This document shows, one piece after another, positions 1,955 through 20,914 of a DNA stretch of 20,914 nucleotides (position 1 is its first letter; the number at the start of each line of letters is the position of its first letter). This stretch comes from Candidatus Uhrbacteria bacterium. GTDB taxonomy: Bacteria > Patescibacteriota > Patescibacteriia > UBA9934 > GWF2-40-263. Where the stretch lies: contig CAIKXH010000015.1 in assembly GCA_903831335.1 (NCBI GenBank), positions 1-20,914 on the forward strand. Reading direction: 5' to 3'. The notes under the pieces were generated by a model that saw only the letters and a list, made by a program, of their open reading frames with translations, was not told the origin of the DNA and did not search any database. The position numbers and the translations under genes are program-made.

Positions 1955-2034
1955 GGAAAATTTACGCAATACACGATAAATTCATTTATGGAATCATAGC
2001 TTTTGTCATCTTTCATCAACAATGTCATAAACCA

Positions 2035-2063: not shown

Positions 2064-2069
2064 CATCCT

Positions 2070-2097: not shown

Positions 2098-2124
2098 TGG
2101 GTCGGTCTTTCACAGGAGGAAGTC

Positions 2125-3716: not shown

Positions 3717-3745
3717 TTGACCCAATTTCAAAAAGCCTATACACT
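3717..3745 (+). promoter_or_regulatory. Promoter of the ATP synthase operon
   Basis: TTGACC (3717-3722), 17-base spacer, TACACT (3740-3745, 4 of 6 matches). The predicted transcript start (about 3752) is only about 7 bases before the ATG at 3759, so the operon mRNA would be almost leaderless. The box sits between the upstream terminator and the first gene. Confidence 0.6.
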
Positions 3746-3758
3746 ATCGGCGTCTTTT

Positions 3759-4013
3759 ATGAATACTGACGCTGCATATTATCGTCTTGCCATCAGAATT
3801 TTCGCCGATTTTAGCGGATCTATTGCGGTTCCTGCCGTTTTCGCTGCCCTGATCGGGAAGTGGCTTGATGAGAAATATGGGACAGAGCCAAAATTTCTTG
3901 CTTTATTCCTCTTGCTTGCGCTTTTGTCCACAGCCTGGATCGTGGTAAAAAAGGCGAAACGCTATCAAAAGGAATATGATGCTTTGAACAAAAAAGCATC
4001 AAGTGGGAAGTAG
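3759..4013 (+). CDS. atpI: AtpI/AtpZ-like F1Fo ATP synthase accessory protein
   Basis: An 84-residue protein with two membrane segments (about 16-34 and 45-62) separated by a LIGKWLDEKYGTEPKF loop, then a basic tail. This is the pattern of the small ATPase_gene1 (AtpZ/AtpI) family found at the head of ATP synthase operons. Family members are linked to c-ring assembly and to Mg2+ or Ca2+ supply; which applies here is unknown. I use the ATG at 3759. An in-frame TTG at 3717 would add 14 residues, but that TTG is the start of the predicted -35 box. There is no Shine-Dalgarno sequence. atpB follows after 51 bases. Confidence 0.8.
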   Translation: MNTDAAYYRLAIRIFADFSGSIAVPAVFAALIGKWLDEKYGTEPKFLALFLLLALLSTAWIVVKKAKRYQKEYDALNKKASSGK

Positions 4014-4064
4014 AGGCCTTCCTGTTACTCTAACCACAAAACACCAACGTCTAATTTCTTTCCT

Positions 4065-4904: not shown

Positions 4905-4991
4905 TTTTACGCGGAACACGGCTTGTTGAATCGTTCGACAAGTGGTGTTCATCGTGAAACGATGGAGTCATTAACTCATTTATTTATACAT

Positions 4992-5210
4992 ATGGATGCA
5001 GAAAGCGTCGTTACACTCACCAAGGGTTTGACCATTGCGTTGGGTGGATTTGGACCAGCGATTGGTATCGCGATCATCGGTTCTAAAGCTATGGAAGCGA
5101 TTGGTCGCAATCCAGAAGCAGCAGGAAAATTGTTCGTGCCAATGCTTCTCGGAATGGCTTTTGCTGAAGCGGTTGCTATTTACGCTCTTGTTGTTTCGTT
5201 TACCCTCTAA
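4992..5210 (+). CDS. atpE: F1Fo ATP synthase subunit c (proton type)
   Basis: A 72-residue hairpin of two membrane helices joined by the polar loop GRNPEAAGK (38-46). The ion-binding carboxylate is Glu59 in AFAEAVAIY. The Na+-type signature (Gln in helix 1, then E-S-T in helix 2) is absent: helix 1 has GPAIGIA where Na+ enzymes have Q, and Glu59 is followed by Ala-Val. I therefore predict proton coupling. The start at 4992 gives MDAESVV, a standard c-subunit N-terminus; in-frame starts at 4962 and 4923 would add 10 or 23 atypical residues. A stem-loop separates it from atpF, as might suit the c subunit's higher stoichiometry. Confidence 0.95.
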   Translation: MDAESVVTLTKGLTIALGGFGPAIGIAIIGSKAMEAIGRNPEAAGKLFVPMLLGMAFAEAVAIYALVVSFTL

Positions 5211-5265
5211 ACAACAATAGACGCAGGGTCGTTGATTTATCGACGATCTTCGTTGTTTGTTGTTT
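5209..5265 (+). promoter_or_regulatory. Stem-loop between atpE and atpF
   Basis: Outer arms AAACAACAA (5209-5217) and TTGTTGTTT (5257-5265) pair perfectly over 9 bp. An inner stem (5227-5235 with 5240-5248, two G-U pairs) closes a TTTA loop. A T-rich run follows up to the atpF start. This could stabilise the atpE mRNA end or partly attenuate the downstream genes (inference). Confidence 0.5.
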
Positions 5266-5280
5266 ATCATTTTCATTTTT

Positions 5281-5784
5281 ATGACTGAACCAACCGGAAT
5301 CGCGACTCTTGGAATCAATTTGAATATTTTCATTGCTCAACTCATCAACTTTGTGGTTGTGTTGTTGGTTTTATGGAAATTCGCTTACGGACCTATTGTA
5401 AAAATGCTTGATGAACGATCAAAAAAGATTGAAGACAGTATTAAGCTGTCTGATGAAGTGAATACACGAGTCAAAAAACTAGAGGTGGAACAAAAGGAAG
5501 TCATTGCTTCTGCAAAACAAGAAGCCATGCTTATTCTTGAAGCTGCAAGAAATGATGCAGAAACACGTAAACAAGAATTACTCGCCACAGCAAAGAAAGA
5601 GGTGGAGCGTGTTGTGCAGCAAGGAAAGGAACAACTCAAGGCAGAGAAAACGCAAATGATTCAAGAAGTAAAGACAGAACTGGTTGGAATCGTTGTTGCT
5701 GCCACAAAAAAGATTTTGGAATCAGAAGTAGATGAAAAGACTTCACACAAAATTGCTTCAGATGTGATTGAAAAAATGTCTTAA
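5281..5784 (+). CDS. atpF: F1Fo ATP synthase subunit b
   Basis: 167 residues. One N-terminal membrane segment (about 16-36, IAQLINFVVVLLVLWKF) is followed by a long, highly charged, Ala/Glu/Lys-rich coiled coil that forms the peripheral stalk. The segment ILEAARNDAETRKQELLATA is typical. The start at 5281 gives MTEPTGIATLGIN, which fits family N-termini; an in-frame ATG at 5257 would add eight hydrophobic residues encoded by the 3' part of the preceding stem-loop. Only one b gene is present, so the stalk is predicted to be a homodimer. No Shine-Dalgarno is visible. Confidence 0.95.
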   Translation: MTEPTGIATLGINLNIFIAQLINFVVVLLVLWKFAYGPIVKMLDERSKKIEDSIKLSDEVNTRVKKLEVEQKEVIASAKQEAMLILEAARNDAETRKQELLATAKKEVERVVQQGKEQLKAEKTQMIQEVKTELVGIVVAATKKILESEVDEKTSHKIASDVIEKMS

Positions 5785-5788
5785 GCGT

Positions 5789-6172
5789 ATGAAACTTACG
5801 AATAAACAATTAGCAACCGTCTTCATTGATTCGGTTCAGAATGTTACGGAGCACGAACTCAATGAATTATCAAAAGTGTTCATCGAATTTCTCAGAACAA
5901 GAGGTGAACTCAAAAGATTGAAAGATATTGTTCGCTCCATTGATCAGATTTGGATAGAAAGGCATGGAATGGCAACACTTACCATTCAGAGTGCGCATCC
6001 GCTCACTGCAGTATTGAGAAATTCTGTTGTAAAACTCGCGGCAGGCGCAGAGGTGAGAGAAGTGGTTGATCCAACACTTATCGGCGGGGCAAGACTTCGT
6101 ATAGATGAACGGATTATTGATGGTTCACTTAAAGGCGCGCTTGATCAACTCACTGTGACGTTATCGAAATAA
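5789..6172 (+). CDS. atpH: F1Fo ATP synthase subunit delta, short form
   Basis: 127 residues, compared with about 175-180 for typical delta/OSCP subunits. The C-terminal half is recognisable: an [11 protein letters not shown] strand, then [20 protein letters not shown], matching the family's 'D-x-x-L-I-G-G' and 'DGS' landmarks. The N-terminal helical domain that caps the F1 alpha subunits is shortened to about 55 residues. The start at 5789 lies just after the atpF stop. A start at 5768 would overlap atpF by 17 bases and is less likely. Its place between atpF and atpA is canonical and supports the call. Confidence 0.88.
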
Positions 6173-6176
6173 TTTT

Positions 6177-7679
6177 ATGCAAACAAAAACAGATATCATT
6201 GACGCCCTGAAAAAATCACTTGAATCTTTTCAAACAAGTGCTGCAGAAGAACAAGTTGGAACAGTCCTTTCTGTTGCAGACGGAACAGCACGCATGAGCG
6301 GACTTTCAAATGCGAAGTCATCTGAAATGCTTGAGTTTCCTGGAGGAGTTTTTGGAGTGGTGTTGAACCTTGAAGAAGACACTGTTGGGGCTGTTATTTT
6401 GGGAGATACAACCAAAATTAAGGAAGGAGATACGGTGCGTGCACTCGGACGTATTCTTTCTGTTCCTGTCTCTGACGAAATTGTTGGACGTGTTGTTGAT
6501 CCGCTTGGAAATCCAATTGATGGCAAAGGAGCTTTTCGTGCTTCTACGTTTTATCCTATTGAAAAAGTTGCGCCTGGAGTGATGACACGTAAGTCTGTGG
6601 GTGTTCCGCTGCAAACGGGTATTAAAGCGATTGACGCTTTGATTCCAATTGGTCGTGGCCAACGCGAACTTATTATCGGAGATCGTCAGGTTGGAAAGAC
6701 TGCGATTGCTGTTGATACAATCATTAACCAAAAAGGTCAGGGGGTTAAGTGTATTTACGTTGCGATTGGACAAAAAGAATCAAAGATCGCAAAAATCGTA
6801 GCTAAGCTTGAAGAAGCGGGTGCAATGGAATACACAACTGTTGTTGTGGCTGGAGCTTCAGACCCTGCGGCTTTGTCATATATTGCTCCATATACAGGTT
6901 GTACGATTGGAGAATACTTCATGGCAAAAGGGGAAGATGCGCTTGTTGTTTATGATGATCTTTCCAAGCACGCATGGGCTTACCGTGAAATTTCCTTGCT
7001 CCTTCGCCGACCACCCGGACGTGAAGCATACCCTGGAGATGTTTTTTATCTTCACTCTCGTTTGCTCGAACGTGCAGCACGTTTGAATGAAGAAAATGGA
7101 GGCGGATCACTGACAGCACTTCCTATTATTGAAACGCAAGCCGGAGACGTTTCTGCATATATTCCAACAAACGTAATTTCCATTACAGATGGTCAGATTT
7201 ATTTGGAAAGCGATTTGTTCTACCGTGGAATTCGTCCAGCTTTGAACGTAGGTCTTTCTGTTTCTCGTGTAGGGTCATCTGCTCAAACAAAAGCCATGAA
7301 AAAAGTGGCTGGAAAATTACGTTTGGACTTGGCACAGTTCCGTGAGCTTGAAGCCTTTGCGCAATTCGCAACAGATTTGGATGCAGGAACACGTGCACAA
7401 ATTGAACTTGGACGCCGCACAACAGAATTGCTTAAACAATTGCAATACGTTCCACTTCCGTTTGAAGAACAAGTGGCTGTCATTTTTGCTGTGACAAACG
7501 GATTCTTGAATGAAGTTGCTATTGATCAAGTTGTTCGTTGGGAAACAGATTTCAGAAACTACATGAATACAGCTGGGGCTGAAGTGCTGAAAAAACTGAG
7601 AGAAGAAAAAGCATTGTCAGATGAGATCATTGCCGCTCTCAAAGAATCCATTCAAAGCTTTAACGCACAATGGAAATAA
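6177..7679 (+). CDS. atpA: F1Fo ATP synthase subunit alpha
   Basis: 500 residues, the normal family length. It forms the non-catalytic nucleotide-binding positions of the F1 hexamer. The Walker A motif is GDRQVGKT at residues 168-175, with Gln where beta subunits have Gly, which marks it as alpha. The beta-barrel domain occupies about 1-95. The central domain contains [20 protein letters not shown] and the [15 protein letters not shown] signature. It follows atpH by 4 bases and precedes atpG by 3. No Shine-Dalgarno is visible; the ATG follows ATTTT. Confidence 0.99.
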
Positions 7680-7682
7680 CTT

Positions 7683-8588
7683 ATGGCCGGTCAAACAAAA
7701 GCCATTCGTCGTCGGATCAAATCCGTTACAAACACTCGCAAAATCACAAAAGCGATGGAGCTTGTTGCTGCCAGTAAAATGCGAAAGGCCATGCAATCTG
7801 TGCTTGGAACAAAGCCTTACGCAAAACTCGCATGGAGTACGGTGATGTCTATCAGTTCAGCGATTGATACGCACATGCATCCGTTGCTTCGTTCGCACAA
7901 GAAAATCAATCGCATTCTCTTGTTGGTCATTTCTTCAGATCGTGGATTGGCTGGTGGATTCAATACAAACGTTTTGAAAAAGACGTTTGAACAAATTCGC
8001 GCTTATGAACGAAGACAAGACTCAGATGAGTATGTTGAAATCAGGTCTGTGTGTGTAGGAAAACGTTCCGCAGACGCAATGAGACGTGCACAAATCCCAA
8101 TGATCGCGCATTTCACAGACATAACCAACAATACAAAATTTGAGGAAGTCTTACCGATCGGTCGACTCTTGATTGATGAGTTTACAAACGGGAATTACGA
8201 TAAAGTACTTGTTGTCTATACAGATTTCGTGAGTGCTCTCACGCAAAACCCAACCGTTCTGGAATTACTTCCACTTGGAAATCCAAAAGATTTAACACAC
8301 CAAGATTCGTTATCGGTTGTCGAAGCAGTAGAATATCAATTTGAACCTTCACCCCAAATCGTGCTGGACCGGATTTTACCGAGGCTTGTTGAAACAATGG
8401 TTTATCAAGCCGTGCTCGAATCTGCCGCTTCTGAACATTCGGCTCGTATGATGGCCATGCGTAGTGCATCAGACGCAGCAAAGGATATGCTCGGAGACCT
8501 GACATTCACTTATAACCAAGCCCGCCAAGCAGGAATTACTCAAGAAATTGCGGAGATCAGTTCTGGTGCCGCTGCATTAGAAACATAA
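7683..8588 (+). CDS. atpG: F1Fo ATP synthase subunit gamma
   Basis: 301 residues, slightly longer than the usual 285-295. It forms the rotating central shaft. The N-terminal shaft helix (RRIKSVTNTRKITKAMELVA) and the C-terminal helix (ITQEIAEISSGAAALE) are both canonical. The middle Rossmann-like domain contains ISSDRGLAGGFNTN, another family landmark. It is followed by an 87-bp gap filled by a palindromic repeat, unlike the 3- or 4-base spacers elsewhere in the F1 part of the operon. Confidence 0.97.
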   Translation: MAGQTKAIRRRIKSVTNTRKITKAMELVAASKMRKAMQSVLGTKPYAKLAWSTVMSISSAIDTHMHPLLRSHKKINRILLLVISSDRGLAGGFNTNVLKKTFEQIRAYERRQDSDEYVEIRSVCVGKRSADAMRRAQIPMIAHFTDITNNTKFEEVLPIGRLLIDEFTNGNYDKVLVVYTDFVSALTQNPTVLELLPLGNPKDLTHQDSLSVVEAVEYQFEPSPQIVLDRILPRLVETMVYQAVLESAASEHSARMMAMRSASDAAKDMLGDLTFTYNQARQAGITQEIAEISSGAAALET

Positions 8589-10061
<1,473 letters not shown>

Positions 10062-10064
10062 CGT

Positions 10065-10487
10065 ATGCAATTTTCTCTTAAAGTCGTAACACCTGAACGC
10101 ATTGTCTATGAAGACATGGTTGATTCGGTTTCTGTCATGACTGAAATGGGTGAACTGACCATTCTTCCTCATCACATGCCGCTCGTTGCAAATTTACGCG
10201 CGGGAGAAGTGCGATTAAAGAAGAATGGGGAAGAATCCTACTTCGTGGCTTCAACAGGTTTTCTCGAAGTGCATGGAGGAAATCAAGTCGTCCTACTCGC
10301 AGATACAGCAGAAAGAGTGGATGAATTGGAATTAGAAAAAATTGAAGAAGCAAGAGATCGCGCGATAAAATTTCTTACAGAAACACGACATAAGGACGAC
10401 GTTGCATTTGCAGATGCTGCCGTGCACTTAGAAAGAGAATTGGCCCGATATCGAGTTGCGATCAAGAGAAGAAAAACACATAAGTGA
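10065..10487 (+). CDS. atpC: F1Fo ATP synthase subunit epsilon
   Basis: 140 residues. The N-terminal beta-sandwich (1-85) starts FSLKVVTPERIVYEDMVDSV and contains GELTILPHHMPLV, both diagnostic. The C-terminal helical pair (about 88-140) is complete and strongly charged, so inhibition of ATP hydrolysis by the epsilon C-terminal domain is possible here. It is the last gene of the operon; a hairpin follows 16 bases after the stop. Confidence 0.95.
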   Translation: MQFSLKVVTPERIVYEDMVDSVSVMTEMGELTILPHHMPLVANLRAGEVRLKKNGEESYFVASTGFLEVHGGNQVVLLADTAERVDELELEKIEEARDRAIKFLTETRHKDDVAFADAAVHLERELARYRVAIKRRKTHK

Positions 10488-10632: not shown

Positions 10633-11274
10633 ATGCCAACACGCGCAGAACGAAAAATTGACGAGCGTCTGATTCGTGAACTTCGCAACAAGGGTGTCCT
10701 TCTTGATGCGGAAGGGCACAAACTCGATTCACCAAAAGGTGCGATTCTTGTAACGTGCGCAGACTGTGATCAGTTTGAAGACATCTTCAATCATACGCTT
10801 GAAATGCTTCGTAAAGGTGGATATGAGGAACGACCTCAGCCACTGAGTCAGCATGGTGGCGGAATGCTGATCTCTGAAACGTGTCCTCTGGATCGAAAAT
10901 ACAAAATTGACGAATACTTGCTTTTGAATATTGCACGCGCTCGTCATATGAAAGCAATCAACACGCTTGCGCTTCTTGTTCACTATCCATGTGGTGCAGC
11001 TCGGCTTGCAGGCATTCCTCTGTTCGATGTCATCGAACATAATGTTGCGGCAAAACGTCGGGTCAAGTCGTTGTGGCCTGAACTCAAGGTTGGGTGCTTT
11101 GTCCACGTAGACTATCTGGACCGAAAGCGTACATACTTCCTGAGCCATGATGCGTTTACAGAATGGGCGCTTGAATATGGAGAAGAGTTTAGGACCCAAG
11201 CGCACGCACCTGATAATAGTTGTGAGCCTGAAGGCCTCATCATTTTTCCTTCGTTTTCCACCGTACCTCCGTAG
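10633..11274 (+). CDS. Beta-carbonic-anhydrase-like protein
   Basis: 213 residues. The spacing of motifs resembles beta-class carbonic anhydrases. VTCADCD places Cys42 and Asp44 where that family has the zinc-binding Cys and catalytic Asp of C-x-D-x-R. LLVHYPCGAA places His117 and Cys120 as the H-x-x-C zinc pair, followed by the usual Gly. If the fold is right, the zinc ligands are intact, but the arginine of the Asp-Arg dyad is Asp46, so CO2 hydration is uncertain. No signal peptide or membrane segment is seen. The ATG at 10633 has AGGGG 5 bases upstream (10623-10627). The gene stands alone between its own promoter and terminator, sandwiched between the ATP synthase and the complex-I-like operon. 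G+C is raised in parts. It could instead be a related zinc protein without anhydrase activity. Confidence 0.5.
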   Translation: MPTRAERKIDERLIRELRNKGVLLDAEGHKLDSPKGAILVTCADCDQFEDIFNHTLEMLRKGGYEERPQPLSQHGGGMLISETCPLDRKYKIDEYLLLNIARARHMKAINTLALLVHYPCGAARLAGIPLFDVIEHNVAAKRRVKSLWPELKVGCFVHVDYLDRKRTYFLSHDAFTEWALEYGEEFRTQAHAPDNSCEPEGLIIFPSFSTVPP

Positions 11275-11287
11275 TCTTTTTCTTCTG

Positions 11288-11311
11288 ACTGGATTTCTTT
11301 CCAGTTTTTTT
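11288..11311 (+). terminator. Intrinsic terminator after the carbonic-anhydrase-like gene
   Basis: ACTGGA (11288-11293) pairs with TCCAGT (11300-11305) around a 6-base loop, followed by a T-run to 11311. It separates this gene from the complex-I-like operon. Confidence 0.85.
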
Positions 11312-11330: not shown

Positions 11331-11360
11331 TTGACTCTATGGATGATTCTGGAGTAGATT
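11331..11360 (+). promoter_or_regulatory. Candidate promoter of the complex-I-like operon
   Basis: TTGACT (11331-11336), 18-base spacer, TAGATT (11355-11360, 4 of 6 matches). The transcript would start near 11367, just upstream of an ATG at 11381. This mirrors the short-leader arrangement of the ATP synthase operon. Confidence 0.45.
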
Positions 11361-11380: not shown

Positions 11381-11920
11381 ATGAGCTTTGCAAAACTTCT
11401 TCATAGACTTTTTTTCGGCCCTCGTATTACGGAATCTAAAAAAATATTTCTTTCAGAGAATAATGAATTGGAGCAGGTGGGCAAAGAATTAAAATCCATT
11501 ATTCACTCTTTGTACGGAGGGAGATCTTTGCGCATTCGTGCCGTTGATGGTGGGTCTACAAATGCTGAGGAAATAGAACTAACAGCATTGAACAATGCAT
11601 ATTATGATATTGACCGTTTCGGTTTATCGTTTGTTGCTTCACCGCGTCATGCAGATATGGTTTGGGTAACAGGACCTATCACAAGGAATTTGGAACGTGC
11701 TGTGAAAACAACATATGAGGCCGCCCCAGAACCGTGCATTGTTGTTGCTGTTGGCGATGGTGCATGTACAGGTGGAATTTGGAAAGATTCCTATGCTGTT
11801 GTTGGTGCGTTGGAAAACGTTATTCCTGTTCATATCAAAATTCCTGGTGATCCTCCAACACCAACACAAATATTGAAAGGTGTCCTTTCTGCATTGAAAA
11901 ATTCGTCTTCTCGATCTTAA
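11381..11920 (+). CDS. hyfI: Group-4 hydrogenase / NuoB-like small subunit lacking Fe-S ligands
   Basis: 179 residues from ATG 11381; an in-frame ATG at 11339 would give 193. I prefer 11381 because the N-terminus MSFAKLLHRLFFGP fits the family and because 11339 leaves no room for a promoter after the terminator. The fold is clear: RFGLSFVASPRHADMVWVTG, TRNLERAV, GGIWKDSYAVVG and IPVHIKIPG match HycG/HyfI/NuoB. In that family four cysteines hold the proximal [4Fe-4S] (N2) cluster. Here the first motif (DCGGCNGCEIE in HycG-type proteins) reads DGGSTNAEEIE, with Thr60 and Glu63 at the ligand positions. The final GCPP is GDPP (Asp157). Only the third position (Cys129 in GACTGG) remains. A cluster is therefore not expected. 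The remaining Cys119 does not correspond to a ligand. It is the first gene of the operon, and hyfB starts one base after its stop. Confidence 0.9.
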   Translation: MSFAKLLHRLFFGPRITESKKIFLSENNELEQVGKELKSIIHSLYGGRSLRIRAVDGGSTNAEEIELTALNNAYYDIDRFGLSFVASPRHADMVWVTGPITRNLERAVKTTYEAAPEPCIVVAVGDGACTGGIWKDSYAVVGALENVIPVHIKIPGDPPTPTQILKGVLSALKNSSSRS

Positions 11921-11921
11921 T

Positions 11922-13913
11922 ATGGATATCAATTTTATGGCGTCCGTTATTTTATTTTCTCTGATTGGTTCTCTGATCTCCGCTTTTTTTTCATTCGTAG
12001 GAAAAGAAGGGAAGCAACATAAAGCAATCATGATTTTCCTTGCATTGTCGACTGGAGTAGGTGCAGTCGCTGGCATGTTCTTTCTTTTAAGCGGTCAGAC
12101 GCAGTGGGTCATTTTTCAGTCATCATGGATTTTTGGAGCACCACTTATTTTACAAACACTTTCCGCTCTCTTTTTTGTTCTCTTGAATACGGTTGCCTGT
12201 CTTGCATCTATTTATGCAATTCAATACGTTGAACAATATAGAAATATTTACAATGTAAAAACTCTTGATTCGCTCATGGCGATTTTTATTTTTGGAATGC
12301 AAGGAGTTTTGCTTTCAGCAACCCCATTTAGTTTTTTGCTTTTTTGGGAAATCATGTCTTTGTCTTCCTTTTTCCTTGTAATGGCAGATAAGGAAATCGC
12401 ATCTATTCGTGCGGCGCTTTTTTACCTTATCATGACACATTTAGGTGCTGGTGCTCTTCTTGCGGGATTTATGATCCTTTCGAATGGATCTTTTCTTGAA
12501 TCATTCACACGTCTTGCTTTTATCGCCCAACAATTGCCGCCACAAACCCTGTTCGGAGTTTTCCTTTTGTTTTTGTTTGGGTTTGGTTCTAAAGCTGGAC
12601 TCGTGCCGTTTCATGTATGGCTTCCTGAAGCTCACCCACAAGCACCATCACACATTTCTGCTCTCATGTCCGGAGTCATGTTGAAAATGGCTCTCTATGG
12701 TTTTTTCGTTTTAACACTCACAATTCTTCCGCCAATCGGAATGGTTGCGTCCATGATTGTGATTGCCCTTGGTCTTCTTTCTGCGTTCTTTGGCGTTCTG
12801 TATGCCGTGATAGAAAGAGATGTTAAGCGCGTTTTAGCATTTAGCAGTATTGAAAACATGGGGATTATTTTCACCATGGTTGGTGTAGCTTTTTTCGCCC
12901 AATCACAGAATCTAATAGCATTCTCTCATGCCGCTATTGGTGCTGCGCTTTTGTTTGCGATTGCTCATGCCTTCTTCAAATCAGGATTATTTATGGGGGC
13001 TGGAGTGATGGTGCATGCTGCGCACACACGTAGTTTGGAAGCAATGGGCGGACTTGCGAAGCGCATGCCTTTATTTTCCGGAGCAATGCTTATTCTTGCG
13101 CTTTCAGCAGCTGCACTTCCGCCATTTTCTGCGTTCGCAGCAGAATGGATCTTTATTCAGAACCTTGTTTCAGAACTCTCTGCCGCATCGCTTCTTGTTC
13201 AGGGGGTATTTGTTCTCATTCTCACACTAGTGGCACTTGTTGGGGGATTGGCCTTGTTTGCCATGATAAAGCTATTTGGAATCGGATTTCTTGGCGAACC
13301 TAGATCTGAGCATGTTGAACATGCAGATGTTCCTGGAAATCTTATCTCGGTTCCAATTTATATTCTTGCTGGGTTATCGGTTGTTGTTGCGTTTTGTGCA
13401 CCATGGGTTTTGCGTGTCATTAAATTTAATGATCTTTCAACTGCTGACGGACTGCAATCAAATCTTATCGCTTCTGGTGCTGCTCTCAACCCACTCTATT
13501 TGTTTCTGGCTTTAGTGATCGCGATTGCTGCAGTGTTTGTTCTCAGACGATTTCTGTCTGATGTAAAAAATGAACGACCGTATCACACATGGGATTGTGG
13601 TCAACCAATTACGTCTGGAATGGAATATACAGCAACAGCCTTTTCCTCTCCGATTCGCTTCTTTTTCCGAATGATTACAAGATCAGGAAAAATTGTGACT
13701 GTTACTCCAATTGTTGAAACAAACACCTGGATTGCAAGCAGGGTATTTTCTCTTGAACTGAGACAGATTTGGTATGACTGGTTCTATGTGCCAATAACAA
13801 AAATATTTCTTCGTGCCTCAACCGCCATAAGACGTCTTCAAAATGGAGTGATTCAATTTTACATTGCCCTCATCTTTATTGCTCTTGTTTTAACGTTGAC
13901 TATCGCTATATGA
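11922..13913 (+). CDS. hyfB: HyfB/HycC-like antiporter-type membrane subunit
   Basis: 663 residues with about 16 membrane segments, in the NuoL/M/N (proton-conducting, Mrp-antiporter-like) family. Key ionisable residues are kept: Glu143 in LLFWEIMSL, Lys224 in FGSKAGLVPFH, His231, His244 in PSHISAL, Lys255 in SGVMLKMALYG, and His349/Lys353 in HAFFKSGLF. The long C-terminal part, including HTWDCGQPITSGMEYTATAF, is typical of HyfB-type subunits rather than NuoL. Its expected role is ion translocation across the membrane. Start at 11922; an alternative ATG lies five codons later. It overlaps hyfC by ATGA at 13910-13913, which implies translational coupling. Confidence 0.95.
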   Translation: MDINFMASVILFSLIGSLISAFFSFVGKEGKQHKAIMIFLALSTGVGAVAGMFFLLSGQTQWVIFQSSWIFGAPLILQTLSALFFVLLNTVACLASIYAIQYVEQYRNIYNVKTLDSLMAIFIFGMQGVLLSATPFSFLLFWEIMSLSSFFLVMADKEIASIRAALFYLIMTHLGAGALLAGFMILSNGSFLESFTRLAFIAQQLPPQTLFGVFLLFLFGFGSKAGLVPFHVWLPEAHPQAPSHISALMSGVMLKMALYGFFVLTLTILPPIGMVASMIVIALGLLSAFFGVLYAVIERDVKRVLAFSSIENMGIIFTMVGVAFFAQSQNLIAFSHAAIGAALLFAIAHAFFKSGLFMGAGVMVHAAHTRSLEAMGGLAKRMPLFSGAMLILALSAAALPPFSAFAAEWIFIQNLVSELSAASLLVQGVFVLILTLVALVGGLALFAMIKLFGIGFLGEPRSEHVEHADVPGNLISVPIYILAGLSVVVAFCAPWVLRVIKFNDLSTADGLQSNLIASGAALNPLYLFLALVIAIAAVFVLRRFLSDVKNERPYHTWDCGQPITSGMEYTATAFSSPIRFFFRMITRSGKIVTVTPIVETNTWIASRVFSLELRQIWYDWFYVPITKIFLRASTAIRRLQNGVIQFYIALIFIALVLTLTIAI

Positions 13914-14845
13914 ACGCTTTTCTTTTAACAGGGATTCAAATTGTTGCCGTTCTGGGAATTTCTCCATTTACGGTTGGTCTGGTGCGCATGTTCAAGGCAC
14001 GATTACAAGGTCGTCACGGAGCATCTCCATTTCTTCCATACATCACCATTGCAACACTTTTGAAAAAACAAATGGTTATTTCTAAAAGTACTTCATGGGT
14101 ATTTAAAATAGTTCCATTCGTTGTATTAGGATCCACCATTTTCCTTGTTTGTGTTCTTCCACTCGTTGTGTTTGGGGGTATGTTCGCATCGCTTGGTCAC
14201 TTCATCATTATTGCAGGCGTTCTTGCGCTTGGTGCAGTATTTTTGGTTATGGGAGGACTTGAAAGTGCGAGTGCGTTTGGGGGTATGGGTGCGAGCAGAG
14301 AAATGACGTTAGCATCTCTTGTGGAGCCTGCGGTGATTACAACATTTGCCACATTTGCTGTGGTGACAGGTGCTTTCACAATTGATGCAATGTTTCAGGG
14401 TGCACACATTCTTACTTCACCAGCACTGGTTCCTGCTGTTGCCGCATTGATCATGATTGCTCTTGCGGAAAATGCTCGTTATCCCGTTGATAATCCTGCA
14501 ACACACCTTGAACTCACTATGGTGCATGAGGCAATGGTATTGGAATATTCTGGTCCGTACCTGGCACTTCTTGAATACGCATCTGCTATTAAATTAACAA
14601 TCTTTTCTTTGTTGGTAGCAAATGTTTTGTTTCCATTAACACTTGCATCCAACCTATCTGCTGCTGCAATCGCAATTGCACTTGGTTTTGTGGTAGTGAA
14701 AATTGTTATTGTTTCATTTTCTCTTGCTCTGCTTGAATCTGTTATTGCAAAAATGCGTTTTTATCGCATGCATGAATTTCTTACCATTGCTTTTTTCATT
14801 GCGCTTTCCGGTCTCGTGTTTGCGCTTATGAGCATTTCTCTATGA
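13910..14845 (+). CDS. hyfC: HyfC/NuoH-like membrane subunit
   Basis: 311 residues with about eight membrane segments. This subunit connects the soluble arm to the ion-translocating arm and, in complex I, forms the E-channel. Conserved elements are intact: RLQGRHGASPF (31-41), FGGMGASREMTLASLVEPA (123-141), and a long charged stretch from Ala186 to Gly215 that includes AENARYPVDNPATHLELT and VHEAMVLEYSG. These glutamates are among the most conserved in the superfamily. The coupling apparatus therefore appears to be under selection even though the redox centres next to it are lost. It overlaps hyfE by ATGA at 14842-14845. Confidence 0.95.
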   Translation: MNAFLLTGIQIVAVLGISPFTVGLVRMFKARLQGRHGASPFLPYITIATLLKKQMVISKSTSWVFKIVPFVVLGSTIFLVCVLPLVVFGGMFASLGHFIIIAGVLALGAVFLVMGGLESASAFGGMGASREMTLASLVEPAVITTFATFAVVTGAFTIDAMFQGAHILTSPALVPAVAALIMIALAENARYPVDNPATHLELTMVHEAMVLEYSGPYLALLEYASAIKLTIFSLLVANVLFPLTLASNLSAAAIAIALGFVVVKIVIVSFSLALLESVIAKMRFYRMHEFLTIAFFIALSGLVFALMSISL

Positions 14846-15471
14846 TGACTCTTTCTCTTTGGAATAACGTTTTTATCGGAGGTACCCTCGTGTTTGCGAT
14901 CGTTATGATGGGCAAACCACGCTTACCCGCAATGTTGCGCGCTTTCGCGCTTTCGTCGTTGTTTCTTGCGGGTCTTATTGTCACATCTTCTCTCGCACAT
15001 GGGGAAGAACAGCCTTACGCCATTGCTCTCGTAAATATTGCTTTTAAGGTAATTCTTGCACCATGGATTCTGCTTTATGCCGCTCGCAAGGTGAATGCTT
15101 CCATGGCATTGAAATTTTACTTGAGACCAACATCAACGTATTTTGCGGCATTACTCGTTCTTGTTGCATCAGTTTTCATTGCGATGAAACTTCCTGATGT
15201 TCCATATTTATCCATTGCACTTGTTTTATTGGGATTACTTTTCATGATCATTCGAAAAGACCTTTATTCTCAGATCATGGGATTTATGGTGATGGAGAAT
15301 GGAATCGCAGCATACGGAATTCTTATGATCGGAGGTTTTCCTTTTATGCTTGAAACGGGAATTCTCTTCGTTGTGATAACGGGTGCTATTCTCATGGCGA
15401 TTTTAAGTCGACACGTGCAAGAGCTTTATGCAACAGGGGATACAGAATCCTTAACAGAACTTACAGAATAA
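14842..15471 (+). CDS. hyfE: HyfE-like membrane subunit (NuoK-related C-terminus)
   Basis: 209 residues with about six membrane segments. The C-terminal half resembles NuoK: QIMGFMVMENGIAAYGI (about 151-167), then a Glu in FMLETGILF. These correspond to the buried glutamates of the NuoK/MrpC fold. The N-terminal half is the extra HyfE portion. It is translationally coupled to hyfC through the ATGA overlap and ends one base before the hyfF ATG. Confidence 0.92.
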   Translation: MMTLSLWNNVFIGGTLVFAIVMMGKPRLPAMLRAFALSSLFLAGLIVTSSLAHGEEQPYAIALVNIAFKVILAPWILLYAARKVNASMALKFYLRPTSTYFAALLVLVASVFIAMKLPDVPYLSIALVLLGLLFMIIRKDLYSQIMGFMVMENGIAAYGILMIGGFPFMLETGILFVVITGAILMAILSRHVQELYATGDTESLTELTE

Positions 15472-15472
15472 T

Positions 15473-16939
15473 ATGTCTATTCTTTTTTCCATTTTGCTAT
15501 TTGCTGCGGCAAGCGCCTACATTGCGCGTACAGAAAAACAGATACGCATATCCGCACTTGTTTTTGCACTCGTTGGGGGTGGTGCCATTCTTTTGACTGC
15601 TATTGCATCTCTTTTTGGGTATTCCATTCTTGCTGTTTCTGGTTGGCTTAAAGCAGATCTATATTCGTGGTTCATGGTAGCGCTTGTTGCGTTTACATAT
15701 ATAACAGCAACCATTGTAAGTGTCCGTTACACAGGTGAAGAAACAAGAGAAAAATTGATGACGATTGACATGGTTCGTATCTATTTTTTCTCCATACCGC
15801 TCTTTATTCTTTCCATGATTCTTGCTGTCTTTGCGGATCATCTTGCTGTCCTTTGGATTGGGCTTGAAGGAACAACCCTTACAACAACTCTTCTTGTTGC
15901 ATTGTATAGAAAGGATGCGTCTATTGAAGCTGCCTGGAAATTTATCATGCTTTGTTCTATCGGAATTGGACTCGGGATGATTGGAATGCTCATGTTTGTT
16001 CATGCTGGAATAGAATCAGGGCTTGATGTCTTCGAGTCGTTCTCATTGTCGACGTTACGTGAACACGCAAACATTCTTTCCGTATCAACAGCAAAACTCG
16101 CATTCGTTTTAATTTTAGTCGGTCTCGGAACAAAAGTAGGATTTGTTCCGATGCACACATGGCTTCCTGATGCTCACAGTAAAACTCCATCACCAATCAG
16201 CGCTCTTTTGTCTGGTGTCTTATTGAACGTTGCTTTTTATGCAGTGCTTCGATTCAAAACAACCACAGATCTTGTTATTGGAAATGCGTCCTGGACAAAT
16301 AATTTGATGATCGGTTTTGGGTTATTGTCCGTTGTGACAGCGGCATTATTTCTTCTTCAACAAAGAAATTACAAACGAATGCTTGCTTATTCGAGCGTAG
16401 AACACATGGGGCTTATGGGATTTGCTTCAGGACTTGGTCCTGTCGGAGTTCTTGCTCTCACGATTCATGCTGTTTTTCACACATTTACAAAATCCGCTTT
16501 ATTCTTCTTATCGGGTGAAATCTTGCTTTCTCAAAAAACAACGAAGATTGCGGGCATTAAGAATTTAATGAAGGTATTACCGATTACTTCATGTCTATTT
16601 TTGCTTGGAATTCTAGCAATTATTGCTGTGCCTCCATCTGGTTTGTTTACAAGTGAATTTATGATTGTTGGGGCAGGATTGCAGTTTTACAAATGGCCAA
16701 CGATCGTTCTTCTTGTTTCTTTGTCTGTCATTGCGTTTAGTATGCTGAAGAGCACTACTTCCATGCTTTACACAAAAGAGGAGGACTCAAAGATGTCTGA
16801 GGTGATTATTCACAAAGAACGTTGGACGCTTACCCACGGAGTTGCAATTGTTCAATTATGTTTGATTTTTCTGTTCGGTCTTCTCATTATGACAACACCT
16901 GTGATGGAGTTTTTCACAGCTATTTCAAAATCGATTTAA
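15473..16939 (+). CDS. hyfF: HyfF-like antiporter-type membrane subunit
   Basis: 488 residues with about 14 membrane segments, a second NuoL/M/N-type subunit. Visible functional residues are Glu132 in WIGLEGTTLT, Lys221 in LGTKVGFVPMH, His228 and His235 in LPDAHSKTPS. In the segment where HyfB has SGVMLK, HyfF has SGVLLN (Asn252), so the two antiporter-like subunits differ at that lysine. The C-terminus lacks the long lateral helix of NuoL. The operon thus encodes two antiporter-like subunits rather than three (no HyfD). Confidence 0.94.
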   Translation: MSILFSILLFAAASAYIARTEKQIRISALVFALVGGGAILLTAIASLFGYSILAVSGWLKADLYSWFMVALVAFTYITATIVSVRYTGEETREKLMTIDMVRIYFFSIPLFILSMILAVFADHLAVLWIGLEGTTLTTTLLVALYRKDASIEAAWKFIMLCSIGIGLGMIGMLMFVHAGIESGLDVFESFSLSTLREHANILSVSTAKLAFVLILVGLGTKVGFVPMHTWLPDAHSKTPSPISALLSGVLLNVAFYAVLRFKTTTDLVIGNASWTNNLMIGFGLLSVVTAALFLLQQRNYKRMLAYSSVEHMGLMGFASGLGPVGVLALTIHAVFHTFTKSALFFLSGEILLSQKTTKIAGIKNLMKVLPITSCLFLLGILAIIAVPPSGLFTSEFMIVGAGLQFYKWPTIVLLVSLSVIAFSMLKSTTSMLYTKEEDSKMSEVIIHKERWTLTHGVAIVQLCLIFLFGLLIMTTPVMEFFTAISKSI

Positions 16940-16940
16940 T

Positions 16941-18497
16941 ATGAATGCGCAACAAATCCTTCAAAATGTCCAGCTGTCCGGAGAATCCCGTGGGAATCTT
17001 GCGGTTGCTCAAACAATCGACAAGCAAGAGTTCACGCGTCTCTGTGAGCGTCTTGTTGCCGAGTTTCAATTACCGCTGTCATTGTTTTATGCCACCGATA
17101 AGCGCTCTGAAGGGCATGGTTTTGGCATACACGCTCTTTTTAGTGTGGATGCAACACATGAATGGATTTTGATTTCAGCGCATTTGCCAGAATCAGATCC
17201 ACGCTATGAATCTTTAACCAAATCTGTCATGGCAGCGCATTGGTATGAACGTTATGCCATGGATATGTTTGGTATTATTGCGGAAGGTCATCCAGATTTC
17301 CGTCGTCTGGTTCATCATGAGAACGTTCCGCTTCATACGCACCCACTCAGAAAAGATTTTGCTTGGAATACAAAAATGGAACACGCAAATGAACCGTATC
17401 CAATGCATCATATTAAAGGTGAGGGGATCTATGAAATTCCTGTGGGTCCAATTCACGCAGGAATCATTGAACCAGGACATTTCAGATTCAATGTGGCCGG
17501 AGAGCGTATTATCACTCTTGAAGGGAAGTTGTTTTTCACACACAAGGGGGTAGAAAAACTCCTTGAGGGAAAGACAATCACAGAAGCCATGCCATTTATT
17601 GAGGGCGTCTCTGGTGATATGGCAGCTTCCCACGCACTTGCTTACGTGCAAGCTGTTGAAGATCTCGCAAAAACAAACGTTCCACAACGAGCAAAGGAGT
17701 TGCGAACCCTCATTGCGGAACTTGAACGTATCACCATGCATACGCACGATATTGCGAATATGGCCGGAATGGGAACAGGATTTACGGTTATGGCTGCTCA
17801 CGGATTCCGTATCAAGGAAAAAATGATGCGATTGTCTGAGCGTGTGTTCGGAAATCGTTTTTGGAAAGGATTTGTTGTTCCGGGTGGAGTAGGGAAAGCA
17901 TTGTCGAAAGATCAACTTTCTGATATTGCAAAAACAACCAAAGAAGTTGTTGATGAAATGCAAGATCTTTATAACCTCGGTCGTCATTCAGATGGCTTGC
18001 GAGAACGATTAGAAACAACAGGATTGCTGACAAAAGAGGTTGCTGTTGCATACGGCGCCCTTGGGCTTCCGGCGCGTGCCTCAGGAATAGACAGGGATGT
18101 TCGACGTGATCATCCGTATGCGGCTTATGCAGAACTTAAACCAGAAATTCAGGTTCTGAGTAAGGGGGATGTTTACGCAAGATGGAAACTTCGCGCGCTT
18201 GAGATGGTAGAATCTTTAAAACTCGTCGAAACTGTCTGTGGCGCAAAAAATGAAGGTCCTATTTCTGCTGAAGTAAATATAAAGGAAGGAATGGGAATTG
18301 GGGCTGTTGAATCATGGAGAGGTGAATCCCTTTGTGTGGTCTATGTAAAAGACGGTGTTATTGATCGCTGTGTTGTTCGTGATCCGTCGTTTTGCAACTG
18401 GGCTCTATTTGGTGAAATTGGGCCAGGAAACATCGTCCCGGACTTTCCGCTTTGTAACAAGTCATTGAACCTCAGTTATTCTGGAACCGATCTGTAA
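16941..18497 (+). CDS. hyfG: HyfG-like large subunit (NuoC-NuoD fusion) without [NiFe] ligands
   Basis: 518 residues. Residues about 1-145 are NuoC-like (WYERYAMDMFGIIAEGHPDF, then HPLRKDF); about 160-518 are NuoD/large-subunit-like (PVGPIHAGIIEPGHFRFNV, FTHKGVEKLLEG). Group-4 hydrogenases bind [NiFe] with R-x-C-G-x-C near the middle and D-P-C-x-x-C near the C-terminus. Here the first reads GVSGDMAASHALAY: Ser224 and Met227 replace both Cys, and the preceding Arg is Gly222. The second reads NLSYSGTDL: Ser512 and Gly515 replace both Cys, and the protein ends there without the C-terminal extension that maturation proteases remove. It cannot hold a normal [NiFe] site. The rest of the subunit is well conserved, which argues against decay. 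The described Ehr (energy-converting hydrogenase-related) proteins share the missing ligands. Last gene of the operon. Confidence 0.93.
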   Translation: MNAQQILQNVQLSGESRGNLAVAQTIDKQEFTRLCERLVAEFQLPLSLFYATDKRSEGHGFGIHALFSVDATHEWILISAHLPESDPRYESLTKSVMAAHWYERYAMDMFGIIAEGHPDFRRLVHHENVPLHTHPLRKDFAWNTKMEHANEPYPMHHIKGEGIYEIPVGPIHAGIIEPGHFRFNVAGERIITLEGKLFFTHKGVEKLLEGKTITEAMPFIEGVSGDMAASHALAYVQAVEDLAKTNVPQRAKELRTLIAELERITMHTHDIANMAGMGTGFTVMAAHGFRIKEKMMRLSERVFGNRFWKGFVVPGGVGKALSKDQLSDIAKTTKEVVDEMQDLYNLGRHSDGLRERLETTGLLTKEVAVAYGALGLPARASGIDRDVRRDHPYAAYAELKPEIQVLSKGDVYARWKLRALEMVESLKLVETVCGAKNEGPISAEVNIKEGMGIGAVESWRGESLCVVYVKDGVIDRCVVRDPSFCNWALFGEIGPGNIVPDFPLCNKSLNLSYSGTDL

Positions 18498-18526
18498 AAA
18501 GCACCAAAGGAGACAAAAGCACCAAA
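18497..18526 (+). repeat. 12-bp direct repeat after hyfG
   Basis: AAAAGCACCAAA occurs at 18497-18508 and again at 18515-18526, an 18-bp period, directly after the hyfG stop codon. Confidence 0.8.
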
Positions 18527-18545
18527 TTCCAAAAAGAAAATATAT

Positions 18546-18582
18546 AATCCCGATTTCCAATTTTGGAATTTGGGATTTTTTC
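18546..18582 (+). terminator. Intrinsic terminator of the complex-I-like operon
   Basis: A 14-bp stem with one mismatch and one G-T pair (AATCCC...TTCCA with TGGAA...GGGATT, 18546-18577) closes an ATTT loop and runs into a T-tract. Confidence 0.85.
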
Positions 18583-18631
18583 TTTTGAAATTTTATGTCT
18601 TTCGGCGGTATACCCAACTTCCAATTTCTTC

Positions 18632-18640
18632 TGCTACAAT
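18632..18640 (+). promoter_or_regulatory. Extended -10 promoter of the helicase gene
   Basis: TGCTACAAT is an extended -10 element (TG-N-TACAAT, 5 of 6 matches to TATAAT). It ends nine bases before the ATG at 18650, so transcription would start at or within about three bases of the start codon. An alternative TTGAAA-18-TATACC pair lies at 18585-18614. Confidence 0.5.
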
Positions 18641-18649
18641 ACCGTCACT

Positions 18650-20914
18650 ATGAACCTGCTTGAAGACCTCAATCCAGAGCAAATATCTGCCGTGACACAC
18701 ACAACAGGTCCTCTTATGATTGTTGCAGGGGCGGGGACTGGGAAAACAACCGTTGTGACTCGCAGAATCGCCTGGCTTATTGAACAAGGCCTTGCAAAGC
18801 CTGAGCAGATTTTATCGCTTACCTTTACAGATAAGGCGGCGGGAGAAATGGAAGAACGTGTAGACATGCTTTTACCTTACGGTTATGTCGATTTGCAGAT
18901 CTCAACCTTCCACGCATTTTGTGAACGGTTGCTCAGAGAATATGGAGCAGAAATGGGTCTTGCGAGAGACTTTAAACTCTTAGCAGAATTGGATACGTGG
19001 TTATTGATACGGCAACATTTCGACAAATTCGAACTCGACTATTATCGCCCACTCGGAAATCCGACAAAGTTTTTAAAAGGATTCCTGACACATTTCTCGA
19101 GACTAAAGGATCAAGCCATTGAACCAGAAACGTATCTAGCGTTTGTGGAAAAGTTCGTGTTCGACAATGACTCGAAGCTCACGGCAGATGAGATCGAAAC
19201 AGAAAAGAAGCGGATGCTTGAACTTGCGCGTGCGTATCAGACTTACCAATCTATTCTTCAGGAACATGACGCATTAGATTTTGGTGATCTCATCTCTTAT
19301 GCAGTGAAATTATTGCGTGAGCGACCGAGAATTTTGAAATTGGTGCGTGACAAGTTTCGTTTCGTGCTCGTCGACGAGTTTCAAGATACAAACCACGCAC
19401 AATATGAACTCGTGAAGTTAATTGCGGCTCCAACGAACAACTTAACAATCGTTGGAGATGATGATCAATCCATCTATCATTTTCGGGGGGCATCTCTTGA
19501 AAACATTCTTCGGTTTGAAACAGATTTTCCTTCTACCGCACGAGTTGTTCTTACAAGGAATTATCGCTCATCACAATCGATTTTGGATCATGCACATACA
19601 TTTATTCAGATGAATAATCCACACCGTCTTGAGTCGAAGTCGAATGGACTCACGAAACGTTTGATTGCACATTCTGAGAAAGAGGGAACCATCGAACATA
19701 TTCATGCGGAAACACTGGAGGATGAGGTTTTGTCCGTCGTAAATAAAATGATTCATCTAAAAGAGCAGGATGTAGAGTTGGACTGGAATGATTTTGCGAT
19801 TCTCGTTCGCTCAAACAGTGCGGGCGATGATTTTGCGGACGCATTTGAACGTCACGGAATTCCATTTCAATTTCTTGCGCTCTCGGGTCTGTACACAAAA
19901 CCAGTTATCCTCGACCTGCTCGCGTTCATACGCGTAATCGATCATCCATTCGACAGCCCAAGCTTCTATCGTATTTTGACGTCCCCAATGTACGGAATCG
20001 ATGCTAGGACGATTGCAGAATTGAATCTTCTTGCTCAGAAAAAAGGAAAATCGCTCTTTGAGGCAACAGAGGCATCAGGATCGATTGAAACCATTTCTGC
20101 AGAGATTCAGCAAAAACTAAGCGCAATTATAACAGGACTCACAACTCTCAGGGCTGATTTGCAAGGAAAGGCTGCAACAGAGTGTTTTAAACAGATTGTC
20201 AGAAAAATTGGTTATATCGAGTATCTGAATGGGAGGCCAGAGGTGGAGAAAATGGAGTCATTCCGCTATCTCAACCAATTTCTAGAGCGAGTGAAATCCT
20301 TTGAAACAAGAAACGATCAAAAGAATTTGCATGCGTTTCTTTTAGAGTTTGCGAATGAGCGAGAGGCTGGAGAAGAAGGTTCATTATCTGTCGATTTTGA
20401 ATCTGGTCCTGAGCTTGTGCGTATCATGACGGTTCATGCGTCGAAGGGTCTCGAATTCAAACATGTCTTCATTGTAAATCTCGTTGACAGGCGTTTTCCT
20501 GCTCAGGCACGAGGAGAAACAATTCCTATTCCAGATGGCTTGTTTTCGACGTTGATCGAACACGAGGATGCTCATCTTCATGAAGAGCGCCGGTTGTTTT
20601 ATGTTGCAATGACACGTGCAAAGGAAGGTTTATATTTTACCTCTGCAGATGATTACGGAGGGGCAAGAGCCCGTAAACTTTCAAGGTTTTTGCATGAGCT
20701 TGGTTATGAGAAACCAGATGGAAAAGACAGAACACTCGTTCATTTGTTTGATGAGGATCGTGGGGAGCAAGAGGAACATATTTCTCAAACAGAAATTTCC
20801 ATTCCAATTCCAAAACAATTCTCCTTCACACAACTTGCAGCTTTTAACATGGATAGAATCGACTATACGATTCCAATCAACAGTATTGAAAAATGGAAGT
20901 TAGTCAATGAAACA
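18650..20914 (+). CDS. uvrD: UvrD/PcrA-type superfamily 1 DNA helicase, 3' end outside window
   Basis: 755 residues are visible and the frame is still open at the window edge. All SF1A helicase motifs are present: Walker A AGAGTGKT (26-33), motif Ia LTFTDKAAGEMEERV (57-71), motif II VDEFQDT (241-247), motif III GDDDQSIYHFRGA (269-281), motif IV NYRSS (304-308), motif V (IMTVHASKGLEFKHVF) and motif VI (EERRLFYVAMTRA). It unwinds DNA 3'-5' with ATP, in repair or recombination. Near residue 725 FSFTQLAAFN appears, resembling the start of the PD-(D/E)xK nuclease domains fused to some UvrD/AddA-like helicases, but the cysteine usually next to it is missing and the rest lies outside. The start follows an extended -10 box almost directly, so the mRNA may be leaderless. 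UvrD-family call certain; PcrA, AddA-like or other subtype not. Confidence 0.93.
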   Translation, partial: MNLLEDLNPEQISAVTHTTGPLMIVAGAGTGKTTVVTRRIAWLIEQGLAKPEQILSLTFTDKAAGEMEERVDMLLPYGYVDLQISTFHAFCERLLREYGAEMGLARDFKLLAELDTWLLIRQHFDKFELDYYRPLGNPTKFLKGFLTHFSRLKDQAIEPETYLAFVEKFVFDNDSKLTADEIETEKKRMLELARAYQTYQSILQEHDALDFGDLISYAVKLLRERPRILKLVRDKFRFVLVDEFQDTNHAQYELVKLIAAPTNNLTIVGDDDQSIYHFRGASLENILRFETDFPSTARVVLTRNYRSSQSILDHAHTFIQMNNPHRLESKSNGLTKRLIAHSEKEGTIEHIHAETLEDEVLSVVNKMIHLKEQDVELDWNDFAILVRSNSAGDDFADAFERHGIPFQFLALSGLYTKPVILDLLAFIRVIDHPFDSPSFYRILTSPMYGIDARTIAELNLLAQKKGKSLFEATEASGSIETISAEIQQKLSAIITGLTTLRADLQGKAATECFKQIVRKIGYIEYLNGRPEVEKMESFRYLNQFLERVKSFETRNDQKNLHAFLLEFANEREAGEEGSLSVDFESGPELVRIMTVHASKGLEFKHVFIVNLVDRRFPAQARGETIPIPDGLFSTLIEHEDAHLHEERRLFYVAMTRAKEGLYFTSADDYGGARARKLSRFLHELGYEKPDGKDRTLVHLFDEDRGEQEEHISQTEISIPIPKQFSFTQLAAFNMDRIDYTIPINSIEKWKLVNET

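Follow-up and report, generated by a model that had tools for sequence, protein, structure and literature searches.

A six-subunit Ehr complex of Candidatus Uhrbacteria that has lost its [NiFe] and N2 ligands and may translocate ions without moving electrons

RESULTS

The Ehr locus and its gene layout

The window, which is the whole 20,914-nucleotide stretch of DNA analysed here, is contig C15 of a Candidatus Uhrbacteria genome assembly of 852,255 bases in 176 contigs that is 81% complete. At 11381–18497 it carries a six-gene Ehr (energy-converting-hydrogenase-related) block on the plus strand, with Pfam matches to the families Oxidored_q6, Proton_antipo_M (in two genes), NADHdh, Oxidored_q2 and Complex1_30kDa together with Complex1_49kDa (Table 1). 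As an earlier note on this DNA had described, the six genes are coupled on one strand, being separated by one-base gaps (11920/11922, 15471/15473 and 16939/16941) or joined by 4-base overlaps of the ATGA type (13910–13913 and 14842–14845), and the block is found just downstream of an atp operon. The further claim that the operon holds no ferredoxin, NuoI, diaphorase or maturation gene agrees with a Pfam scan of ten window proteins, in which none of these families was detected. The first open reading frame of the block could start at 11339, and the relatives L098 and L100 start where the 11381 ATG lies. A terminator-like match (11287–11306) and a promoter-like match (11331–11360) are located between the neighbouring gene and the Ehr block, such matches being not far from chance in number.

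The block combines large and small subunits of the group 4 type with membrane subunits of the HyfB, HyfC, HyfE and HyfF types, and 4/4 of the [NiFe]-binding cysteines are replaced in its large subunit. In a 92-row quick tree, which was built without named Ehr-type reference sequences, the window's large subunit clusters with other Ehr and away from [NiFe] group 4. The block is an N2-less Ehr, that is, a six-subunit member of the complex I/group 4 hydrogenase superfamily without a [NiFe] or Fe-S site of its own.

Elsewhere in the window, a 573-residue open reading frame on the minus strand (248–1969) has about three similar repeats of ∼70 residues and matches no Pfam family over the cut-off, and a 600-residue frame on the plus strand upstream of atp (1873–3675) has a sub-threshold Pfam match only.

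Table 1. Coordinates of the Ehr genes, the former metal-ligand positions and neighbouring genes in the window
Feature	Coordinates	Strand	Evidence
Small subunit (NuoB/HycG-like), N2 ligands lost	11381–11920	+	Oxidored_q6 3.9e-23; best solved relatives MbhJ, HycG
HyfB-like antiporter subunit, charged residues kept	11922–13913	+	Proton_antipo_M 7.3e-50
HyfC/NuoH-like subunit with E-channel	13910–14845	+	NADHdh 1.8e-27
HyfE subunit, NuoK-like part C-terminal	14842–15471	+	Oxidored_q2 4.2e-6; hydrogenase 4 membrane subunit 9.4e-18 (below its cut-off)
HyfF-like antiporter subunit	15473–16939	+	Proton_antipo_M 4.9e-52
Large subunit (NuoC+NuoD/HycE-like), [NiFe] ligands lost	16941–18497	+	Complex1_49kDa 1.7e-42, 30kDa 8.6e-21; HycE 7.5e-60; model TM 0.80 to HycE
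First two N2 ligand positions, now Thr, Glu	11558–11569	+	Alignment to cysteine-bearing relatives
Third N2 ligand position, now Gly	11759–11761	+	Alignment to cysteine-bearing relatives
Fourth N2 ligand position, now Asp	11849–11851	+	Alignment to cysteine-bearing relatives
E177, beta1-beta2 loop glutamate (HycE E193)	17469–17471	+	Read by hand from HycE alignment; 77/77 Ehr rows
First [NiFe] cysteine pair, now S224, M227	17610–17621	+	Alignment
Second [NiFe] cysteine pair, now S512, G515	18474–18485	+	Alignment
Neighbouring atp operon	3717–10487	+	Open reading frames, Atp names from translations; same genes matched in relatives
Neighbouring beta-carbonic-anhydrase-like gene, linked to atpC rather than Ehr	10633–11274	+	

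Loss of both metal sites

In the large subunit of the window, Ser224, Met227, Ser512 and Gly515 occupy the cysteine positions of [NiFe] relatives. The residues S224, D226, S512 and G515 are kept in all 120 of the best 120 of 7742 large-subunit matches, and when 77 Ehr rows were compared with 17 [NiFe] rows, four columns (224, 226, 512 and 515) told the two sets apart at the chosen thresholds. One locus of the window's clade (L108, genome G052) has Cys at 224; its HyfB has lost K255 and K353, and E408 is changed to Asp.

The N2 ligand positions of the window's small subunit are Thr, Glu, Gly and Asp. The cysteine of its GDGAC motif was considered as a retained N2 ligand and ruled out by alignment, the ligand position being the preceding Gly. 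We refer to the window's clade (Uhrbacteria and Moranbacteria) as CPR-B and to its sister (Levy-, Davies-, Staskawicz- and Magasanikbacteria and others) as CPR-A. No Cys is found at the four N2 positions in 19/19 CPR-B rows (of which L021 and L197 are one genome) or in 3/3 archaeal-type rows, while 15 CPR-A rows (one of them short, with two positions unseen) have at most one, usually at the second position; the N2 ligands are lost in 34/34 of the CPR Ehr small subunits read. Among the other 54 small-subunit rows, 52 have four cysteines and two have three at these columns, both with adjacent cysteines at the first site and one being the genuine complex I in L206. Asp has taken the place of Cys at several of these positions in both CPR-A and the archaeal clade, and at one in the window's clade. 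The 120 top-ranking relatives of the small subunit of Methanosarcina all lack Cys at the four positions, with D-T-D-N in 101, a count that describes spread and not frequency because these relatives were picked by similarity to an N2-less query.

With 0/4 of the [NiFe] cysteines and 0/4 of the proximal Fe-S cluster ligands, the window's complex falls outside the group 4 [NiFe] hydrogenases proper, and the proposal of the earlier note that neither metal site is usable is confirmed, all four [NiFe] and all four N2-type cysteines being replaced.

Repeated loss of N2

In the 92-row large-subunit tree, obtained by a quick search, the CPR rows fall into a single group next to Nitrospira and Rokubacteria, and L072 (Methanosarcina), L081 (Altiarchaeales) and L095 (Dehalococcoidales) group away from CPR. 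Placing the N2 state on this tree requires two changes over the 80 rows whose state is known. A single N2-less clade was rejected (p-AU 0.008, quick tree) with a constraint set of 32 rows, comprising 26 read as N2-less and six CPR rows with an unread small subunit. N2 thus appears to have been lost at least twice, separately in CPR and in the methanogen/Dehalococcoidales clade; the evidence is strong but not final because of long branches and the six unread rows in the constrained set.

Conservation of the ion path and proton relay

The charged residues of HyfB (E143, K224, K255, K353 and E408), HyfF (E132, K221, K340 and E395), HyfC (E139, E187, E201, E207, E212 and E276) and HyfE (E152 and E171) are present in the window; nearly every CPR-B row retains them, just as the [NiFe] and N2-bearing rows do. 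The exceptions are HyfE E171, which is Gln in 10/12 CPR-A rows, and HyfF E395, which is Lys in 6/16 CPR-A, 3/3 archaeal and 7/15 [NiFe] rows.

Residues with proton-transfer roles in HycE, as given in PMC9474812, were mapped by hand on a pairwise alignment in which the chain numbering runs 12 ahead of HycE. The correspondences with the window's large subunit are E193 to E177, R478 to R460, E437 to E421, R395 to R379, H284 to H267 and D529 to N510. E177, R460 and E421 are found in 77/77 Ehr rows, position 379 is Arg or Lys, position 267 is mostly His (Leu in 2/3 archaeal rows), and at position 510 most Ehr rows have Asn where the 17 [NiFe] rows have Glu. HycE has a further acidic residue, D192; nearly all Ehr rows show Ile there, and so do these [NiFe] rows. 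The charged channel residues that the earlier note had reported for the four membrane subunits are kept in the E-channel and the antiporter-like subunits, and those of the large-subunit proton relay are kept as well. The model of the large subunit, made without its partner, keeps the HycE fold (TM 0.80 to 7z0s_E). Residues 151–201, 494–498 and 503–518, which include part of the emptied pocket, fall under pLDDT 50, and no pocket geometry is claimed because of this low confidence.

Electron-input partners in Ehr genomes

Of the 33 genomes in which Ehr gave any match, 15 were selected on block integrity and completeness and searched for partners; 14 are at least 90% complete, the exception being the window's own (81%). 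The ferredoxin search used PF12838 (Fer4_7) as its one model. Neither HypD nor NuoF was detected in any of the 15 Ehr genomes (controls positive in 4/14 and 9/14, respectively), and Fer4_7 was found in two, G084 and G210 (controls positive in 14/14); the window's own 81% complete genome gave no Fer4_7 and no NuoF match. In G084 the Fer4_7 protein is the NuoI of a separate, genuine complex I with a cysteine-bearing NuoB, and the Ehr there is still N2-less. The Fer4_7 gene of G210 (L212, C43:10875–11024) lies on another contig and is the sole match in the 15 genomes that is not accounted for. In the remaining 13/15 genomes the small-subunit family has one member per genome. The search for Fe-S partners elsewhere in the genome, which the earlier note had suggested as a check, therefore returned almost none with PF12838 as the sole ferredoxin model. 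The maturation gene HypD of group 4 [NiFe] hydrogenases (0/15) and the NuoI and NuoF of respiratory complex I were thus not found for the window's system, which also lacks the N2 ligands.

G084 (L206) combines, in one CPR genome, an N2-less Ehr within its atp locus and a genuine complex I cluster. G210 also has a second small-subunit fragment, which lies at one end of contig C25 and may belong to a second complex.

Linkage to the atp operon and distribution

In CPR-B, all 17 distinct genomes with 2 kb or more of upstream sequence, among them the window's own, have atpC 61–2894 bp upstream of the block on the same strand, a count that leaves out L022, L105, L107 and L109, where the sequence ends too near. 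In CPR-A, atpC is near the block in 6/12 loci with 2 kb upstream, five of them on the same strand with gaps of 7–186 bp and the sixth (L046) on the opposite strand; in L036, outside the 12, atpC is 683 bp downstream. None of the 63 named Ehr loci outside CPR, 58 of which have at least 2 kb on a side, has an atp gene. The linkage that the earlier note wished to see surveyed across Patescibacteria is thus general in the resolvable CPR-B genomes and extends to half of these CPR-A loci. The Ehr–atp linkage is real and recurs in CPR; in the window's order, some of it has to reflect descent of a single site lying between atpC and UvrD. Synteny with UvrD was discarded as functional evidence, the atpC–UvrD interval holding other genes or none where Ehr is absent. 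Ehr is present in 15 of 59 relatives (16 with the block of G054) and atpC in 57, so the ATP synthase does not need Ehr; across the class, Ehr is found in 22 of 286 genomes, in some as fragments only. The c-subunit of the window's ATP synthase lacks the letters of what we take to be the Na+-binding motif. In a Daviesbacteria locus (L046, 2986–20765), the Ehr block and other genes stand between atpC and atpD, so that the atp operon is split.

A carbonic-anhydrase-like neighbour

The protein encoded between the atp operon and the Ehr block has a beta-carbonic-anhydrase fold. C42, D44, H117 and C120 are invariant in ten sequences and form C-x-D ... H-x-x-C, which we take to be the beta-carbonic-anhydrase zinc-site motif. 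Both the fold and these predicted zinc-site residues place the protein among the beta-carbonic anhydrases, with the usual Arg of CxDxR replaced and no Pfam Pro_CA match in this protein. Profile A2 of the family, which includes sequences from some of the same genomes searched, matches 18/59 relatives, two of them weakly. The idea that the protein is an Ehr subunit was rejected as the leading one, as the gene is found beside atpC without Ehr (<1 kb from atpC in G016, G019, G028 and G032, which have no Ehr match) and is missing from many Ehr loci; any role with Ehr would be speculation. At the same site, G007 (L172) has a different family with a CsoSCA_cat match of 21.6 against a cut-off of 21.5 bits, and the relative of this protein in L101 has a Pro_CA match below the cut-off only. 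Two different beta-carbonic-anhydrase-like families are seen just 3' of atpC in the window's order (the window, L101, L171 and L172), with or without Ehr, a link between genes of this kind and the ATP synthase locus.

Selection and erosion

Comparison of the window with three same-genus relatives, in which dS is often above 1.5, gave dN/dS of 0.04–0.06 for the small subunit and 0.04–0.14 for the membrane subunits; the large subunit had 0.08 and 0.10 in two pairs, its ratio against L099 being not calculable. AtpA and AtpD had 0.02–0.03, and the carbonic-anhydrase-like gene had 0.16 in its one calculable pair. Against the more distant L104, most ratios were not calculable and HyfE gave 0.25. The six Ehr genes are under purifying selection, and the low dN/dS indicates that this constraint includes the emptied soluble module.

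In five of five genomes of genus g25 (L226–L230), only a HyfB-like gene and a shortened HyfF-like gene are left between atpC and UvrD, and this HyfB has lost four of its five key charged residues in every one of these genomes and the remaining one in four of them. G058 (L111, 4890–11549) has six diverged genes beside UvrD of which Pfam recognizes the large subunit only, and the Ehr of G271 has an internal stop. The complex is dispensable, since g25 has lost most of it and G052 several of its charges, and the erosion in g25 and G058 indicates that it can be dismantled, which argues against a vital role.

DISCUSSION

Our analysis suggests that the complex probably moves ions without moving electrons, because both metal sites are gone while the proton-path residues are kept. 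Part of this is not new: loss of the [NiFe] cysteines in CPR Ehr, the same family and lineage as the window, has already been published (Jaffe 2020, PMC7304191). The Ehr statement in that paper concerns the large subunit and does not itself take up N2 loss, atp linkage or missing partners. The interpretation in the earlier note is partly supported, by the lack of a usable metal site, the scarcity of electron partners in the genomes searched and the retained ion path. The family name Ehr, the parallel archaeal loss of N2 and the carbonic-anhydrase-like neighbour go beyond that note. The open-licence literature searched, as far as it was covered, yielded no report of N2-less Ehr, whether in CPR or in the separate archaeal-type clade, or of Ehr–atp linkage in CPR, and the portions of PMC12361115 and PMC10811913 consulted hold nothing on Ehr in CPR. 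The function of Ehr is described as unknown in accounts of Nitrospirales (2025) and comammox (2023).

Comparison with known systems delimits what the complex may be. The N2-bearing Ehr, for example that of Nitrospira, has the same six subunits and the same SGD/SYSG signature in place of the [NiFe] cysteines; however, it has all four N2 cysteines, another gene order and no atp linkage in the loci seen. Escherichia coli formate hydrogenlyase (HycB–G, FdhF) provides the best solved relative of the large subunit and shares the proton-relay and E-channel residues, but has [NiFe], Fe-S clusters and a formate dehydrogenase. Respiratory complex I has homologous B, C/D, H, K and antiporter-like subunits, whereas in the window's complex no NuoE, F, G or I was found, N2 is missing and a quinone site is only hypothetical. 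By analogy, the antiporter-like subunits may work without redox chemistry, as in Mrp cation/proton antiporters. The latter are not known to have subunits of the NuoB/C/D/H type, and no MrpE/F/G-type family was found by Pfam among the six operon proteins, which sets the complex apart from Mrp.

We put at roughly one in two the probability that the complex is a non-redox ion translocator, probably one in which the emptied hydrogenase module gates a gradient-driven antiport; both the redox-free transport and its driving force are inferred. The two antiporter-like subunits would carry out Na+/H+ or K+/H+ exchange, or else conduct protons. The emptied module may serve as a protonation-dependent gate acting through E177 of the beta1-beta2 loop, an R460/E421/R379 relay and the HyfC E-channel. 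An ion gradient used in common with the adjacent F1Fo ATP synthase, an enzyme that could operate as an ATPase, would supply the energy. Of the options in the earlier note, namely antiport, a pocket ligand and conformational signalling, we infer that antiport comes first. The fuller picture, of a redox-free coupling machine of the complex I type whose module was emptied in two lineages and kept as a protonation-gated ion exchanger with a gradient shared with the ATP synthase, is a tentative one and falls a little short of even odds. Ion translocation is also supported by a second HyfB-C-E-F set in L081 (Altiarchaeales, 15679–20702) without an adjacent large or small subunit, resembling a stand-alone membrane arm. 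Against it, other Na+/H+ antiporters (PF00999) are found in 54/59 relatives with or without Ehr, antiport alone would not need so conserved an emptied soluble module, and atp linkage is missing from the archaeal clade and from roughly half of the CPR-A loci that could be resolved. Replacement of other Na+/H+ antiporters by Ehr is unsupported: two of the five genomes without PF00999 have Ehr (G004, 77% complete, and G043).

The strongest rival to gradient-driven ion movement, though itself unlikely, is that the emptied [NiFe] pocket binds a ligand or substrate, or converts it without redox chemistry, and that this event powers or gates the membrane arm in the way that quinone reduction does in complex I. 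The near invariance of S224, D226, S512 and G515 in Ehr indicates that the pocket is not random, the soluble subunits are well conserved (dN/dS 0.04–0.10 where calculable), and beta-carbonic-anhydrase-like genes at the same place in several relatives make CO2 or bicarbonate one candidate; however, no ligand is known for the Ehr pocket, the carbonic-anhydrase-like gene follows atpC even without Ehr, and the model has low confidence in the segments around the pocket. It is considerably less probable that the complex is redox-active after all, with an unseen donor, a flavin or a quinone binding straight into the pocket, or a two-iron or other unsearched carrier. Such a reading would fit the HycE/complex I fold, the suspicion that Ehr couples redox chemistry to charge movement, with N2-bearing Ehr thought to be redox complexes (PMC6349859), and the Fer4_7 proteins in 2/15 genomes, of which that of G210 is unaccounted for. 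It has to contend with 37 N2-less rows that lack an N2-type ligand set and have at most one Cys each, with 0/15 for HypD and NuoF, with 13/15 genomes free of Fer4_7, and with G084, whose NuoI belongs to another complex. The sequence data argue against redox-coupled charge movement in the N2-less Ehr clades.

A role as partner or regulator of the ATP synthase in the membrane, and not as a transporter in its own right, is suggested by the repeated atp linkage in CPR, down to 7 bp from atpC; the far wider occurrence of atpC than of Ehr among the relatives, together with the unlinked archaeal-type loci and half of the resolvable CPR-A loci, renders it very improbable. Least credible is a decaying remnant without function, as could be read from the eroded g25, G058 and G271: the window has six open, coupled frames, dN/dS of 0.04–0.14 where calculable, conservation across CPR and a loss of N2 that is common to whole clades.

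The mechanism by which complex I links its chemistry to the movement of ions is still disputed, and a relative in which the ion path is kept and the electron path gone, apparently twice, would allow coupling to be studied without electrons. An ion translocator of this kind also bears on the use of ion gradients by CPR bacteria that have an ATP synthase and, in the genomes searched, mostly no ferredoxin or complex I. A membrane-bound hydrogenase-like operon without [NiFe] cysteines has been reported in Methanospirillum hungatei, Methanosarcina acetivorans and M. mazei (Anderson 2009, PMC2686161), and is probably the archaeal N2-less clade described here (L072), which is a separate branch from the window and has no atp linkage. 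If this archaeal clade is indeed the operon of M. acetivorans, a genetically tractable organism has a version of the complex.
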